From positions 1-33,196 of the forward strand of contig JAUXAN010000028.1 of NCBI GenBank assembly GCA_030619885.1: a DNA stretch of 33,196 nt, given 5' to 3'. The notes under the pieces were generated by a model. It saw only the letters and a list, made by a program, of their open reading frames with translations, was not told the DNA's origin and did not search any database. Both the position numbers and the translations under genes were made by a program. Source of the DNA: a bacterium (GTDB lineage: Bacteria; Hydrothermota; DG-26; JAUXAN01). This document shows, one piece after another, positions 5,793 to 23,157 of this stretch; position 1 is the first letter of the stretch, and each line of letters opens with the position of its first letter.

Positions 5793-6914
5793 CTAACTCA
5801 CAGTCTTCTTGAAATCTTCATCATCCCAGAGATTTTTGAAAGCTTTATCCTTTTTAGCTTCTTCTTTATATTTAGCATCCAATTCTATTGCTTTAGATAA
5901 ATCTCCAAGAGCGTTTTCTTTGTCGCCTCTGAAGGAGTATATCCGAGTCCTGATATACAATGCCTGAGCGAAATCGGGTTTTATCTCTATTGCCTTATTA
6001 AAGGCTTTAAGTGCATCTTCAATATTATCAATATTAGCAAGTACCAAGCCTTTATCAAACCATGCTGTAGCATTATCAGGTTCTACCTCTATTGCTTTAT
6101 CAAAGGCTTTGAGTGCGTCTTCACGACGACCGAGAAAGATAAGTGAAGAGCCTTTAAGATTCCATGCTGTAGCAAAATTAGGTTTTATCTCTATCGCCTT
6201 ATTAAAGGCTTTAAGCGCATCTTCATAATGTTCAGATTTGATAAACACACCACCTTTAGCAAGCCATGCTATAGCAAGATCAGGTTTTATCTTTATTGCC
6301 TTATCAAGGACTTTAAGTGCATCTTCATAATGTTTAAGTCCGATAAGCGCATCGCCTTTAGCAAGCCATGCCTCAGCAAGATCAGGTTTTATCTCTATCG
6401 CCCGATCAAAAGATTTAAGTGCTTCTTTAACTTTTCCTAAATCGAAGAGCAGAATTCCTCTTTTTAAGAATTCTCCCGGATCACTTTCTATTTTTATTCC
6501 TTTTCTTTCATCTTTTGATATTTCCTTTATTTCTATTATAACCTTATTAGCAAGTTCTGATTTGTTTTCAAATTCAATTTGTTGAATCTTTTCCAGTTCT
6601 TTAGTTTCGGGTTTATAAATTCTTGAATATCTACAAGGGATTATTCTTTTATCCAAATCTACTGCTTTTTTGTATTCCTTCATCACCCATTCAGAGTCCA
6701 TAGTTAAAGCTGTAATAAGAACAATGAAGTATTTACATTGAGTTAGTGCTAAATTTATTTCTTCTTCCCATTCCTTCCCTACCCTGATAGTAATATCTGC
6801 TAAAAATACTGAATGTTCCCTTTTCTCCAGCGCTTTTTTCAAATTTTCCGCATAATCTGCTCCTGTTGTACTTTCATAACATATAAAAACATCATATGAA
6901 CTCATTTCACTCAC
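5793..6914 (-). CDS. TIR-domain protein with TPR array, candidate NADase-type defence effector
   Basis: 373 residues. A TIR domain (about 6-130) starts YDVFICYES and continues VFLADITI...GKEWEEEI, then FIVLIT and SEWVMKEYKKAV. E80, the glutamate following SxW, is at the position of the catalytic glutamate of bacterial TIR NAD-cleaving enzymes. About six TPR units (146-340) and the shared end-cap (NLWDDEDFKKTVS) follow. In known bacterial systems TIR-repeat fusions sense infection and deplete NAD or make a signal nucleotide; that role is inferred here from domain and context. Start is GTG 6914 or ATG 6905; neither has a strong ribosome site. It stands 75 bp after a methyltransferase gene, and its 5' flank contains a methyltransferase-tail relic. 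Confidence 0.85.
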   Translation of the reverse strand: MSEMSSYDVFICYESTTGADYAENLKKALEKREHSVFLADITIRVGKEWEEEINLALTQCKYFIVLITALTMDSEWVMKEYKKAVDLDKRIIPCRYSRIYKPETKELEKIQQIEFENKSELANKVIIEIKEISKDERKGIKIESDPGEFLKRGILLFDLGKVKEALKSFDRAIEIKPDLAEAWLAKGDALIGLKHYEDALKVLDKAIKIKPDLAIAWLAKGGVFIKSEHYEDALKAFNKAIEIKPNFATAWNLKGSSLIFLGRREDALKAFDKAIEVEPDNATAWFDKGLVLANIDNIEDALKAFNKAIEIKPDFAQALYIRTRIYSFRGDKENALGDLSKAIELDAKYKEEAKKDKAFKNLWDDEDFKKTVS

Positions 6915-10140: not shown

Positions 10141-10261
10141 GAGCACCACAGGTGCTGAGACGGATAAACAAGGAGTAAGAAACAGGTATGCCTGTTCCGA
10201 AAGCAGACTACAAGGGAGTTGATAGAAACAAAATTATCAAGAAAGAAATGTAGCATTTTTT

Positions 10262-10376
10262 TGACACAGATTCACCCCGTTAGATGTTTACTATCTAACG
10301 GGGTGAACACAGATGTTCACTGATTGAATATTCTTTTTATAATCTGCGGCCATCAGTGTAAATCAGTGTCTATTAA
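10262..10376. repeat. CGCAGAT/CACTGAT dispersed element with hairpin inserted
   Basis: Matches the elements at 17458-17613 and 23032-23157, including the shared stretch from GTTCACTGATTGAATATTC to the ATCAGTG repeats. In this copy CACAGAT occurs on both sides of the hairpin (10265-10271 and 10308-10314). Confidence 0.75.
10271..10307. repeat. Perfect 15-bp hairpin, TTCACCCCGTTAGAT
   Basis: TTCACCCCGTTAGAT (10271-10285) and its exact complement (10293-10307) with a 7-nt loop GTTTACT. The loop is identical to that at 17536-17542. Confidence 0.8.
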
Positions 10377-14684: not shown

Positions 14685-14712
14685 ATTTTAGTTTAGAATT
14701 AAAACTTGTCAA
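14685..14712 (-). promoter_or_regulatory. Candidate promoter for the membrane protein-serA-infC transcript
   Basis: Minus strand TTGACA (14712-14707), 16-bp spacer, TAAAAT (14690-14685). It overlaps the end of the aldehyde oxidoreductase gene, so the downstream operon can be driven separately. Confidence 0.5.
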
Positions 14713-16510
14713 GAAAAAAGAGGCCGAGTTCTTTCAACTTTTTGTCCATTGGAATTCCCTGCTCATTCCACTCTCGCAAAGCGTAGTACTCGTTCAACAT
14801 CGCATCAAGTTCGACAACCGAATTTTTCGAGTTTCCTTCATTCAATTTTTCTTCAAGAAACCTTTTTGGAAGGGTATCATCTTTTTTAGTGAATCCTTCT
14901 CTAATATTGAACATCCTTTCCAAGTTCGAGATTCTTTCTCCAATTTCGAACAGGTCGCTCCCTCTTATCGTCTCTCCAGTCACCGCTCCAAGCAACGATG
15001 CATAGTGGTCAGGGTTCAAGGCAAAAAGGGAGAAAAGACACATCCCTATCGAATCGAGTGCAGATGTAAGGTCCTGATAGAGTCTCACCAGTTCAGGTTT
15101 ACCACGGATCGAGAACCTATTTACACTACAAGGCGTAGCCAATGCCTCAGGCGAGATTAAATATGCTCTCACATGAGATGCGCCTATATTGGAAGTAGCA
15201 TATGCGAGCCCCATCCCTTTGAATCCCCTTGGGTCATACGCAGGTATTTCCAATCCTTTTACACTCATAGAAAGTTCCGGGTACCCAAATTGGGATGCCA
15301 GTCTCAAAGAACCTTTGGCCAATTCAATTCCGAAACCTTCACCCTTTCCTATCAAATCTGTCAATTTAACCACAGCATTTGCATCTCCAAATTCGAGTTC
15401 ACCCCCGATGCTTTTTCTTATCGAATGTAGTGCAGAACTGTCAAAATATCCTCTCTCAGAAAGTTCCATAGCACAGGCTATCGTGCTCCCTGCAGAAATC
15501 GGGTCGAAACCGAACTCGTTACAGTTATAGTTTGCTTCAACTATTTCTTCGAGGTCACTCACCCCGCAGGCTGGACCCAATGCCCATATCGTCTCGTAAG
15601 CTGGACCTTCCCCACCTCGAGTAGAGGTCTTCGTTGCCCTTCCACACCCCACAGGACAGTCAGTACAGGCTACATTATGTTCAAAGTAAAGTTCCTTTAA
15701 AGTCTCACCTGAAATGGAGTCTCCATCTGCAAAGTACCCCTTTTGAAAGTTTTTAACTGGAAAGGCTCCATATCCATTTATTAGCTTTATCATAAATGAA
15801 GTACCATATTCTTTCAAATCATTAATTATTGGTGCCTCACCAAGAGCGGTTGTGCATCTTTTTTTTACAGTTTCAAATTTTTCTTTATCTGCTATGGAAA
15901 CCCCATTTTTGCCATAGACCACGACAGCCTTTAAATTTTTTGAACCCATCACTGCGCCTGCGCCTCCCCTACCTACAGTCTGATTTCTTTCGTTCATTAT
16001 CGAAGCGAACAGGACTTTATTCTCTCCTGCCTGTCCTATGCATGTCACAGCCACCTTTTTATGAGTCTTCCCTATTAGAACTTCTCTCGTTCTATATGTA
16101 TTCAAGCCCCAGATTCCATCTGCATTATGAAATTCAACATTTCCGTTCTCAATCCATAGCCAACAAGGTTTTAAAGATCTGCCTTCTATTATTACAGCGT
16201 CGTATCCTGCCTTTTTAAGTTCTACCCCAAATCTATCGCCCGAGTTCGAACCCACTATGGTATGAGTAAGTGGTGATTTCGTCACAACCTCATATCTTGC
16301 TGAAGTCGGTGCAGAGGTATTATTTAATGGACAGGTCGCAAATATCAATTTATTATCTCGAGAGAGTGGTTCTATCTTTGGGGTAAGTTCATCATACAAA
16401 AATTTCGTTCCTAACCCCCTCCCACCAAGCCATTGGCGAACAATTCTATCATCCAATTCTTCAACCCTTGCAGTTTTTCTATCAAGGTCAACCCTCAATA
16501 TCTTATTCAT
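14699..16510 (-). CDS. aor: Aldehyde ferredoxin oxidoreductase (tungstopterin)
   Basis: 603 residues, full length. It has the family start ILRVDLDRKTARVEEL and WLGGRGLGTKFLYDE, and the GRGGAGAVMGSKNLKAV motif (about 180-196). The [4Fe-4S] cysteines C282, C285, C289 and C491 sit close to the positions known in archaeal AOR (288/291/295/494). It oxidises aldehydes to acids and passes electrons to ferredoxin in the cytoplasm, using a tungsten-bis-pterin cofactor. It starts one base after the aldolase stop, with AAGGA inside the aldolase end, so the two are co-translated. The exact aldehyde cannot be read from sequence; the neighbour points to acetaldehyde or glyceraldehyde 3-phosphate. Confidence 0.94.
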   Translation of the reverse strand: MNKILRVDLDRKTARVEELDDRIVRQWLGGRGLGTKFLYDELTPKIEPLSRDNKLIFATCPLNNTSAPTSARYEVVTKSPLTHTIVGSNSGDRFGVELKKAGYDAVIIEGRSLKPCWLWIENGNVEFHNADGIWGLNTYRTREVLIGKTHKKVAVTCIGQAGENKVLFASIMNERNQTVGRGGAGAVMGSKNLKAVVVYGKNGVSIADKEKFETVKKRCTTALGEAPIINDLKEYGTSFMIKLINGYGAFPVKNFQKGYFADGDSISGETLKELYFEHNVACTDCPVGCGRATKTSTRGGEGPAYETIWALGPACGVSDLEEIVEANYNCNEFGFDPISAGSTIACAMELSERGYFDSSALHSIRKSIGGELEFGDANAVVKLTDLIGKGEGFGIELAKGSLRLASQFGYPELSMSVKGLEIPAYDPRGFKGMGLAYATSNIGASHVRAYLISPEALATPCSVNRFSIRGKPELVRLYQDLTSALDSIGMCLFSLFALNPDHYASLLGAVTGETIRGSDLFEIGERISNLERMFNIREGFTKKDDTLPKRFLEEKLNEGNSKNSVVELDAMLNEYYALREWNEQGIPMDKKLKELGLFFLDKF

Positions 16511-16511
16511 A

Positions 16512-17447
16512 TTAAAAATCCTTATCCCTTCTAAACTTTTTATAGGGACAATCTCTACACTTTTTTGTATAAATTTCCCTCACCTCTCTCCGTTGTTTTG
16601 AGGTATAATTATGGGGGCAGATGGTACAGGGAATCACCCCTGCTTCAACCCATCCTTGAGCGGCGTAGTTGAGCCAGCCCATCGTAGATATTATGTTTAC
16701 AGGAGTGCTTGTGCCTATCCTGAATCTGGAAGGGGTTCTGAGTTCAATCTCTTTTGCGCCTGCATATATCAGTCTAACTACCGTCATAGCATCTTTAATC
16801 CCACCGGCAGCCTTAACCCCCATGTCTGAGCCAACCGTCTCCCGCATCAGTCTTATATGCTCAGGAAATGCACCAAATGGATCCATTCCAGTCGAGTTTT
16901 TAACAAATCGTGCTCCAGCTTCCTTTACAATTCTACATGCGAGTCTTATTTCATCCTCGGTCAGTTCCGAAGACCTGATTATCACCTTCACCCATTCTCC
17001 ATCTGCGGCAGTTACAACCGATTCAATCTCTCTTTTAGTATAGGTCGGGTCGCGCTTAAAATATCCTACATTCATAACCATATCTAATTCAACCTTACCT
17101 GATTCTCCTCTCAATCTCCTGCTTCTTCTAACAACATCCTCTGCCTGTTTCGCTTTCATTTCCACAGATAATCTTCCAAGAGGAAAGTCAATCACATAAC
17201 ATTCTTTCACATCACTTCCTCTCAACATAGGAGCCAGGCTGTCGACCTCAACAGGGTTAACACAGACCGAAGCGCAACCGTAATCCTTCGCCCAACCTAC
17301 TATCTTTGCTATCTTCTCCTCTTTTGTATCCGCCTTTAAATCGGTTACATCGCAAAAAGTTGCAATCTTTTGTGGAGTAAGAACTTCAATTATTCCAAGC
17401 AGTTCTTTCTCAGGTATATCAACGAGGACTGTCCGAGTGGTTTCCAT
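16512..17447 (-). CDS. deoC: Deoxyribose-phosphate aldolase with C-terminal tetracysteine extension
   Basis: 311 residues, longer than the usual 210-260. Aldolase residues are present: D122 (ELDMVMNVG), Schiff-base Lys 183 (FVKNSTGMDPFG) and Lys 212 (VKAAGGIKD). It would split 2-deoxyribose 5-phosphate into glyceraldehyde 3-phosphate and acetaldehyde. The IDHT start motif is altered to CDVTDLKAD. From about residue 265 there is an extra tail with C274, C277, C297 and C300 (CTICPHN...CRDCPY), suited to zinc or an Fe-S cluster, perhaps for docking the oxidoreductase (inference). No clear ribosome site precedes ATG 17447. Related aldolases of unknown substrate are possible. Confidence 0.87.
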   Translation of the reverse strand: METTRTVLVDIPEKELLGIIEVLTPQKIATFCDVTDLKADTKEEKIAKIVGWAKDYGCASVCVNPVEVDSLAPMLRGSDVKECYVIDFPLGRLSVEMKAKQAEDVVRRSRRLRGESGKVELDMVMNVGYFKRDPTYTKREIESVVTAADGEWVKVIIRSSELTEDEIRLACRIVKEAGARFVKNSTGMDPFGAFPEHIRLMRETVGSDMGVKAAGGIKDAMTVVRLIYAGAKEIELRTPSRFRIGTSTPVNIISTMGWLNYAAQGWVEAGVIPCTICPHNYTSKQRREVREIYTKKCRDCPYKKFRRDKDF

Positions 17448-17457
17448 AGTTCGATTT

Positions 17458-17613
17458 TATCCCAGATCATACATTAAACACCGAAAATCACTGAAAGACA
17501 AGAAGTATATTAGACGCAGATCAACCCCGTTAGATGTTTACTATCTAACGGGGTGAACGCAGATGTTCACTGATTGAATATTCTTTTTATAATCTGCGGC
17601 CATCAGTGTAAAT
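17458..17613. repeat. CGCAGAT/CACTGAT dispersed element with hairpin inserted
   Basis: Matches 23032-23157 from TCCCAGAT through ATTAGACGCAGAT, then is interrupted by a hairpin, then resumes GTTCACTGATTG to ATCAGTG. CGCAGAT is present on both sides of the hairpin (17515-17521 and 17558-17564). The copy ends early at its right side. Confidence 0.75.
17524..17554. repeat. Perfect 12-bp hairpin, ACCCCGTTAGAT
   Basis: ACCCCGTTAGAT (17524-17535), loop GTTTACT, ATCTAACGGGGT (17543-17554). Same loop and stem as 10271-10307. Confidence 0.8.
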
Positions 17614-17639: not shown

Positions 17640-18066
17640 TCACTTTGGTGATACGGCAAGGTCACCCAAACATATAATACCAAAACTATTCGCCAATTCC
17701 TGTTTTGCTTTCTCAGTATTCACCAAGATTATATCTACAGATTTTATGATATTCGTTTCGATACTTTTAAAAAATCTGTATATCTTCCCATCTCTTTTCA
17801 TAAATTTATGAGCGATGAGTTCTTCTGTAAGGCTTCCCTGATAATCAAAAATCAATGTTTTTTTAAAAATAGAGGCTACGATTTTTCCAATAAGAGCACC
17901 TTCGTGTAGATGGGAATGAATTGCCACAAGATTTACCTTACTCGCAGATGACATCGTATCCTGATTTTCTTAAAATCTTTGCTTCTTCATAGATTCTGAT
18001 ATGGCATCCCCTGTCAGCGAAGAAAGGGGTGAGAGCAATCATCAAAATGGATTTATGGGCTCTCAT
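17640..18066 (-). pseudogene. Broken GT4-type glycosyltransferase
   Basis: Two pieces in different frames. From ATG 18066 a 42-residue piece reads like a glycosyltransferase start (LTPFFADRGCHIRIYEEAKI, LRKSGYDVIC) and stops at 17938. In another frame, from about 17940 down to 17640, comes the next conserved part of the same fold (VNLVAIHSHLHEGALIGKIV, LIFDYQGSLTEEL, VDIILVNTEKAKQEL). About 50-60 residues normally found between these parts are missing at the junction, and the C-terminal nucleotide-sugar-binding domain is absent; a dispersed repeat lies close behind the break. So this is a decayed gene. It starts 7 bp after the cyclic-nucleotide-binding gene. Confidence 0.75.
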
Positions 18067-23031: not shown

Positions 23032-23157
23032 ATCCCAGATTATGCAACACCGAAAATCACTGAAATAACAAGAAATACATTAGACGCAGATCTTCACTGA
23101 TTGAATATTCTTTTTATAATCTGCGGCCATCAGTGTAAATCAGTGTCTACTGTCTGA
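23032..23157. repeat. CGCAGAT/CACTGAT dispersed element, uninterrupted copy
   Basis: Interleaved inverted repeats: CGCAGAT (23085-23091), CACTGAT (23095-23101), ATCTGCG (23119-23125), ATCAGTG (23129-23135) and again ATCAGTG (23139-23145). This copy lacks the hairpin seen at 10271 and 17524. Confidence 0.75.

Follow-up and report, generated by a model that had tools for sequence, protein, structure and literature searches.

Known aldolase systems and the deoC-aor pair

Complexes of the DmpG-DmpF type are formed by a 4-hydroxy-2-oxovalerate aldolase and an acylating acetaldehyde dehydrogenase, in which an acetaldehyde-releasing aldolase is held to an acetaldehyde-oxidising enzyme. We analyzed a 33,196-nucleotide stretch of bacterial DNA (contig JAUXAN010000028.1 of assembly GCA_030619885.1, positions 1 to 33,196; termed the window) that carries two adjacent genes of a similar kind. 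The gene deoC encodes a deoxyribose-phosphate aldolase (DERA) with a C-terminal tail, and the gene aor encodes a tungsten-type aldehyde:ferredoxin oxidoreductase (AOR) of the AFOR family. Compared to DmpG-DmpF, the aldolase belongs to another family and its partner is a tungsten-type ferredoxin enzyme instead of an NAD/CoA dehydrogenase, with the docking inferred in the present case. We propose, with a probability of about 0.66, that deoC and aor constitute a co-inherited two-gene module, in which the tail serves as a docking element on a metal-bound scaffold and links deoxyribose 5-phosphate cleavage to acetaldehyde oxidation. If true, the module would couple deoxyribose breakdown to ferredoxin reduction. 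The pair offers one tungsten oxidoreductase group a concrete and testable substrate and partner, and suggests a way in which uncultured anaerobes may use the sugar of DNA as a source of electrons at low potential.

DERA and AOR have been described in several contexts, for which the statements below refer to the accessible portions of the papers cited. In Family 4 A-domain encapsulins (PMC8346489) and in the microcompartments of Atribacteria JS1 (PMC6281690), DERA is placed together with other parts. For JS1, DERA was proposed to condense aldehyde inside the compartment, with the aldehyde:ferredoxin oxidoreductases in the cytosol (PMC6281690). In contrast to the window, the accessible text on these two systems does not present DERA and AOR as paired genes. 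In Pelobacter carbinolicus, a deoB-deoC route leads to acetaldehyde, and the organism also has acetaldehyde:ferredoxin oxidoreductases, but the accessible text describes no linkage of deoC and aor (PMC3543383). As far as the accessible portions go, PMC8346489, PMC6281690, PMC13328260, PMC12727526, PMC10816221, PMC4725937 and PMC3543383 handle DERA and AOR separately or join them merely as a pathway. A 2026 survey of 4,064 WorL neighbourhoods, which lists a defined role for five of 92 tungsten oxidoreductase clades, contains neither “aldolase” nor “deoxyribose” in its main text, the part covered here (PMC13328260). In our literature search, whose coverage mostly excluded subscription papers, no title or abstract start among the matches listed dealt with a DERA tail bearing four cysteines or with a pairing of deoC and AOR.

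Linkage of tail-bearing deoC to aor

The sequence-only reading of the window had placed deoC directly before the oxidoreductase gene with a one-base gap. Both open reading frames (ORFs) indeed lie at these coordinates on the minus strand, and the single base 16511 separates the deoC stop from the AOR ATG (Table 1). It had named a search of other genomes as a check and the absence of the pair from all of them as a refutation; the pair was found in many other genomes. Scanning genome contigs with DeoC yielded 27 loci, of which 19 bear the tail. A tail-only profile (A2) matched 13/298 genomes of the Anaerolineae (class of G062), 10/344 of the Bacteroidales (order of G067) and 1/147 of the phylum of the window, namely its own genome. 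In the wider draw of 395 genomes from the Bacteroidia (class of G399), the single match was G399 itself, and no new tail-bearing DeoC was found. With overlaps removed and a weak match with internal stops in G188 left out, 33 tail-bearing DeoCs were collected, window included, and 32 of them have a readable context; the contig of the remaining locus (L037) stops 49 bases past deoC. As the genome of the window is alone among the 147 genomes of its phylum, sequence comparison suggests a horizontal gain of the pair.

An AOR gene lies adjacent to and downstream of deoC on the same strand at 23 of the 32 readable tail loci, comprising the window, 15 loci from the first contig scan, and L092, L093, L095, L098, L109, L110 and L111. 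The other nine (L049, L050, L052, L099, L100, L101, L102, L112 and L113) are unpaired. By contrast, no AOR match (E 1e-5) was found at the 37 tail-less deoC loci (36 distinct, L032 lying within L055), for which flanks of at most 1.5 kb (29 loci) or at most 6 kb (eight loci) were searched, some of them ended by the contig. Among the 22 loci measured, AOR begins with a one-base overlap with the deoC stop in eight and 1-177 bases after the stop in 14, depending on the chosen start. The sequence-only reading had held that a tail found equally without the oxidoreductase would speak against a partnership; the nine unpaired loci in part do so, but their tails have an altered form.

Phylogenetic analysis of 62 AFORs revealed that the paired AORs form a single clade of 23 rows (SH-aLRT 99), with 37 other AFORs, all from tail-bearing genomes, and two PDB sequences outside. 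The tree comprises one sequence of at least 400 aa per fetched locus with duplicates removed, and not every AFOR of every genome. The clade splits into Bacteroidota and Chloroflexota, and the window AOR joins the latter; the placement of the window DeoC in the DeoC tree is less certain (92/82). A reverse search of the 298 Anaerolineae genomes, scoring at most four candidates per genome, found AORs with at least 57% identity to that of the window in eight genomes, which are exactly those whose DeoC tail ends in K[DE]F, and the next match was at 49%. One of the AORs, in G197, is split over two contigs.

The genomes of the unpaired loci differ in their AFOR content. Those of L049 and L052 gave no AFOR match, whereas that of L050 has two AFORs, the better at 321 bits, outside the paired clade. 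In G675 and G605 (L112 and L113), the AFORs reach at most 338 bits, compared to at least 452 bits for the paired AORs given whole. G087, G178, G155 and G198 (L099-L102) have one AFOR each, of 487-496 bits, again outside the clade.

Residues lost together with the oxidoreductase

The K[DE]F end of DeoC agrees with pairing in all of the 31 rows compared (22/22 paired, 0/9 unpaired; Fisher's test 5e-8, kinship ignored). These rows leave out L037, with its contig end, and L048, which is cut at the 5' end and is a near-duplicate of L044, with AOR present and a KEF end. When the tree is computed from the columns outside the tail, at least five changes are seen, and pairing and the K[DE]F end always change together. 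Per column, F311 and R286 are found in every paired and in no unpaired DeoC, and K309 and W258 in 22/22 paired and 1/9 unpaired. Among the columns conserved in at least 21/22 paired sequences, 8/17 columns of the tail were lost by at least five of the nine unpaired DeoCs, compared to 4/104 columns before the tail. On these alignments, the partner-specific part of the tail would be made up of the terminal K-x-F, R286 and tryptophans of the tail, W258 among them. The co-loss pattern thereby points to single residues for docking tests.

The K[DE]F end might alternatively be constrained at the DNA level, with the last codons of deoC acting as the ribosome-binding site of aor. The last codons in the window, AGG GAT AAG GAT, are indeed similar to a Shine-Dalgarno sequence and lie shortly before the ATG of AOR. 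However, the end is also kept where AOR starts about 54-171 bases further on (L034, L038, L039, L040, L045, L046, L155 and L157), and its codons vary over 21 loci (Phe as TTT in 12 and TTC in nine, Lys as AAG in 12 and AAA in nine). In addition, two of the AOR-associated residues, R286 and W258, sit well before the end. The long-gap loci and the codon variation contradict this explanation, which we rejected as hardly tenable; as the codons vary synonymously and the end persists across long gaps, the sequences indicate that selection on the end acts at the protein level.

Architecture of the tail

All four cysteines that the sequence-only reading had assigned to the tail are present, at 274, 277, 297 and 300. 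They are kept in 33/33 tail-bearing DeoCs, including the nine unpaired ones, and are therefore not markers of the partner, so that they were rejected as the partner-specific part that docks AOR. The earlier suggestion that the tail is tied to the oxidoreductase is thus supported through the co-loss, but not for the cysteines as the link. In the AlphaFold2 model of DeoC alone, residues 309-311 have pLDDT values below 50, as would be expected for a free docking end, though this is no proof of one.

The tail could not be assigned to a known domain. Pfam returned nothing better than E 0.015 for the window tail, and an hmmscan of 20 tails gave only weak and mixed matches, including zinc ribbons (best E 0.0088). 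The tail profile against PDB chains yielded no convincing match either (best E 0.34).

Table 1. Positions of the gene pair and of the tail features of DeoC within the window
Feature	Position	Strand	Basis
deoC (311 aa), deoxyribose-phosphate aldolase extended at its C-terminus	16512..17447	-	TIGR00126, AlphaFold2 model, PDB matches
aor, tungsten-type aldehyde:ferredoxin oxidoreductase, 603 aa	14699..16510	-	PF02730 and PF01314; 1aor at E 2.9e-168
C-terminal extension of DeoC, residues 248-311	16515..16706	-	no counterpart in the aligned DERAs without a tail
C274, first cysteine, CxxC with C277 (16617-16619)	16626..16628	-	invariant in A1, A2 and 13 further loci
C297 to C300, second CxxC	16548..16559	-	invariant in A1, A2 and 13 further loci
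R286, AOR-associated residue	16590..16592	-	22/22 paired, 0/9 unpaired
W258, AOR-associated residue	16674..16676	-	22/22 paired, 1/9 unpaired
K309-D310-F311, C-terminus (K[DE]F-COOH)	16515..16523	-	22/22 paired, 0/9 unpaired

The aldolase core of DeoC

DeoC of the window matches TIGR00126 with 176.7 bits (cut-off 117.3), and the match is confined to residues 28-234; the general DeoC model of Pfam stays slightly below its cut-off (23.3 compared to 23.8 bits). The AlphaFold2 model, built from a 19-sequence alignment, has a mean pLDDT of 92.1. Structural similarity search returned only DERA or DERA-like aldolases among the 50 PDB matches listed, with TM-scores (normalised by target) of 0.91-0.94 for the ten best. 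DERAs of the TIGR00126 type (PDB 6d33, 5dbu and 4xbs) share the barrel and the active-site lysines with the window DeoC; however, the match stops at residue 234-235 of the latter, beyond which the four-cysteine tail follows. K183, K212 and D122 are invariant in 19/19 rows of alignment A1, and K212 aligns with the lysine mutated in 6msw (K184L). We matched the window DeoC by motif to E. coli DERA, in which K167, K201 and D102 are the Schiff-base lysine, the second lysine and the aspartate, respectively.

In 31/33 genomes, the tail-bearing DeoC is the sole DERA above the cut-off, and therefore, judged from sequence, most likely the working DERA of the cell, with a predicted cleavage activity. 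The two others, G075 and G648, have a second DERA. In G075, the genome of L049, a canonical DERA sits beside pyrimidine-nucleoside phosphorylase genes with the tail-bearing DeoC elsewhere, and the assembly has no AFOR match; the tailed DeoC may work without AOR in this genome.

The oxidoreductase and its predicted substrate

The AOR of the window possesses the domains AFOR_N and AFOR_C (263.7 and 451.1 bits), and its genome contains no further match to PF01314. The four cysteines of the 4Fe-4S cluster, together with the positions E313 and H448 of 1aor, are kept in 23/23 rows of the paired clade. E332 and H383 of 1aor are not retained as a pair. The window AOR is similar over its whole length to the tungsten oxidoreductases near Pyrococcus furiosus AOR (PDB 1aor, 9mqx and 9g7j), and it groups near 1aor and 9mqx in the tree; compared to these enzymes, the paired AORs form a separate clade linked to the tailed DeoC. 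Four residues, K233 (21/22) and E234, S265 and T295 (22/22), are kept in the paired AORs and occur in at most two other AFORs of the tree. They may mark the side that faces the partner or bear on the choice of substrate.

The sequence-only reading had named both products of the aldolase, acetaldehyde and glyceraldehyde 3-phosphate, as possible substrates of AOR, and only the former was upheld. Acetaldehyde is oxidised by P. furiosus AOR (PMC13328260) and by Clostridium autoethanogenum AFOR, which thereby reduces ferredoxin (PMC12727526), and was the best substrate tested for a Thermoanaerobacter AOR, with a Km of 8-10 uM (PMC10816221). Wherever the acceptor was tested in these relatives, it was ferredoxin. 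That acetaldehyde is the metabolite shared by DeoC and AOR is therefore supported, by way of the nearest characterised relatives. The alternative that AOR acts on glyceraldehyde 3-phosphate, as a glyceraldehyde-3-phosphate oxidoreductase (GAPOR), has in its favor that this compound is a product of the aldolase just as acetaldehyde is; nevertheless, the GAPOR model NF040818 scored 36.7 bits, far below its cut-off of 1300, and AOR clusters with P. furiosus AOR and 9mqx, which leaves this option with next to no credibility.

A proposed docking module and its alternatives

In the proposed module, the tail-bearing DeoC would split deoxyribose 5-phosphate into glyceraldehyde 3-phosphate and acetaldehyde, and the paired AOR would oxidise the acetaldehyde to acetate, with reduction of ferredoxin. 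This oxidation would clear a toxic product, draw the aldolase forward and keep the electrons at low potential. The tail is envisaged as a small domain held by the four-cysteine metal site, probably with zinc and possibly with iron. Its R286/W258 face, together with the free K[DE]F end, would touch AOR and place the aldehyde producer beside the consumer, and the two genes, adjacent and often with overlapping stop and start, would be inherited as a unit. More tentatively, and at somewhat less than even odds, DeoC and AOR might form a stable complex, in which DeoC sits on AOR through the metal-bound domain of its tail and the free K[DE]F end, and acetaldehyde is passed directly to the tungsten site; this would be an independent invention of channelling that spread horizontally among Chloroflexota, Bacteroidota and a WOR-3 bacterium.

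A number of observations weigh against the docking module. As the cysteines persist in DeoCs without AOR, the tail also has a role independent of AOR. The sign test on the co-loss, with four independent contrasts on well-supported branches (five on all), gives p 0.125, and a test with fewer than six contrasts cannot reach 0.05. The AOR tree results from a short search without bootstrap and has some long branches. L037, of genome G063, has a K[DE]F-ended DeoC with no paired-type AOR in the assembly. Moreover, most members are metagenome-assembled, so that a missing AOR can reflect incompleteness. Four unpaired Chloroflexota genomes carry another AOR elsewhere, near P. furiosus AOR and 44-48% identical to that of the window, and may therefore still oxidise the aldehyde without docking. 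In addition, the source of deoxyribose and the direction of the AOR reaction, taken up below, are in part unfavorable.

In those four Chloroflexota, the P. furiosus-like AOR was also considered as a replacement of the lost partner. This idea was weakened, as many tail-less Anaerolineae have AORs of 41-49% identity.

The strongest competitor, which we regard as unlikely yet worth weighing, keeps the same pathway without docking: the linkage would serve co-expression and the end of the tail would drift after loss of AOR for another reason, for example because the tail regulates the aldolase by aldehyde or redox state. In E. coli DERA, the enzyme's own C-terminal tail contributes to catalysis; a tail can therefore act in cis. 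Furthermore, every link between DeoC and AOR is genetic, the cysteines remain without AOR, and the monomer model is of low confidence at its C-terminus. On the other hand, the loss concentrates on individual residues of the tail (R286 and F311, both kept in 0/9) compared to 4/104 conserved columns before the tail, and it is not obvious why a role in cis should track the AOR gene.

The supply of deoxyribose bears on the direction of flux. A pyrimidine-nucleoside phosphorylase is encoded in the genome of the window (557.9 bits), and the enzyme is above the cut-off in 11/13 Chloroflexota genomes and G075. None of the 18 Bacteroidota genomes has one above the cut-off (two weak matches), and deoxynucleosides are therefore not a general source. 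For the genome of the window, deoxynucleoside breakdown is plausible from its gene content.

In the opposite direction, AOR would reduce acetate to acetaldehyde, which DeoC would condense with glyceraldehyde 3-phosphate to deoxyribose 5-phosphate. The aldolase equilibrium favors such a condensation, but deoxyribonucleotides are normally made by ribonucleotide reductase. The lack of a phosphorylase above the cut-off in the Bacteroidota agrees with this direction as well. AORs can run toward acetate reduction (PMC12727526), and the AFOR of C. autoethanogenum does so when driven by CO oxidation and the immediate use of acetaldehyde (PMC12727526). However, acetate/acetaldehyde lies at -580 mV and ferredoxin at about -400 mV (PMC12727526), and reduction therefore needs a strong driver. 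We consider the reverse direction improbable by a wide margin.

Surroundings of the pair

Neighbour genes were clustered by BLAST and their functions assigned by eye. The pairs of the Chloroflexota have a lepB-like gene upstream (clustered in four loci, L035, L036, L047 and L051), and some Chloroflexota loci have a 174-aa gene and a response-regulator gene downstream. By eye, the unpaired Chloroflexota loci inspected retain the gene order around the pair: L145 has lepB and deoC followed by the 174-aa gene and then the response regulator, in the same order as L036 but minus the AOR between them. A larger conserved operon was rejected, as the ORFs beyond the pair vary and none of these neighbour clusters includes a Bacteroidota locus.

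In the window, the interior of the pair has a GC content of 0.44 and 0.43 (two 1-kb segments), compared to 0.37 and 0.38 in the flanking kilobases, which hold the gene ends; a value of 0.43 also occurs elsewhere in the window. A 104-base interspersed repeat is present in three copies (10260-10363, 17510-17613 and 23037-23140), the second and third with 95% and 63% identity to the first. The first two share an identical perfect hairpin, ACCCCGTTAGAT-7-ATCTAACGGGGT (10274-10304 and 17524-17554), and one hairpin-bearing copy sits just upstream of deoC. The repeat resembles a small mobile element or a REP-like one. A 104-aa ORF at 17640-17954 has no Pfam match and by eye resembles a glycosyltransferase fragment. 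Repeats of 102 bases (34 codons) occur at 1-875, 1581-1982 and 5849-6454, with a length, and length only, typical of TPR proteins.

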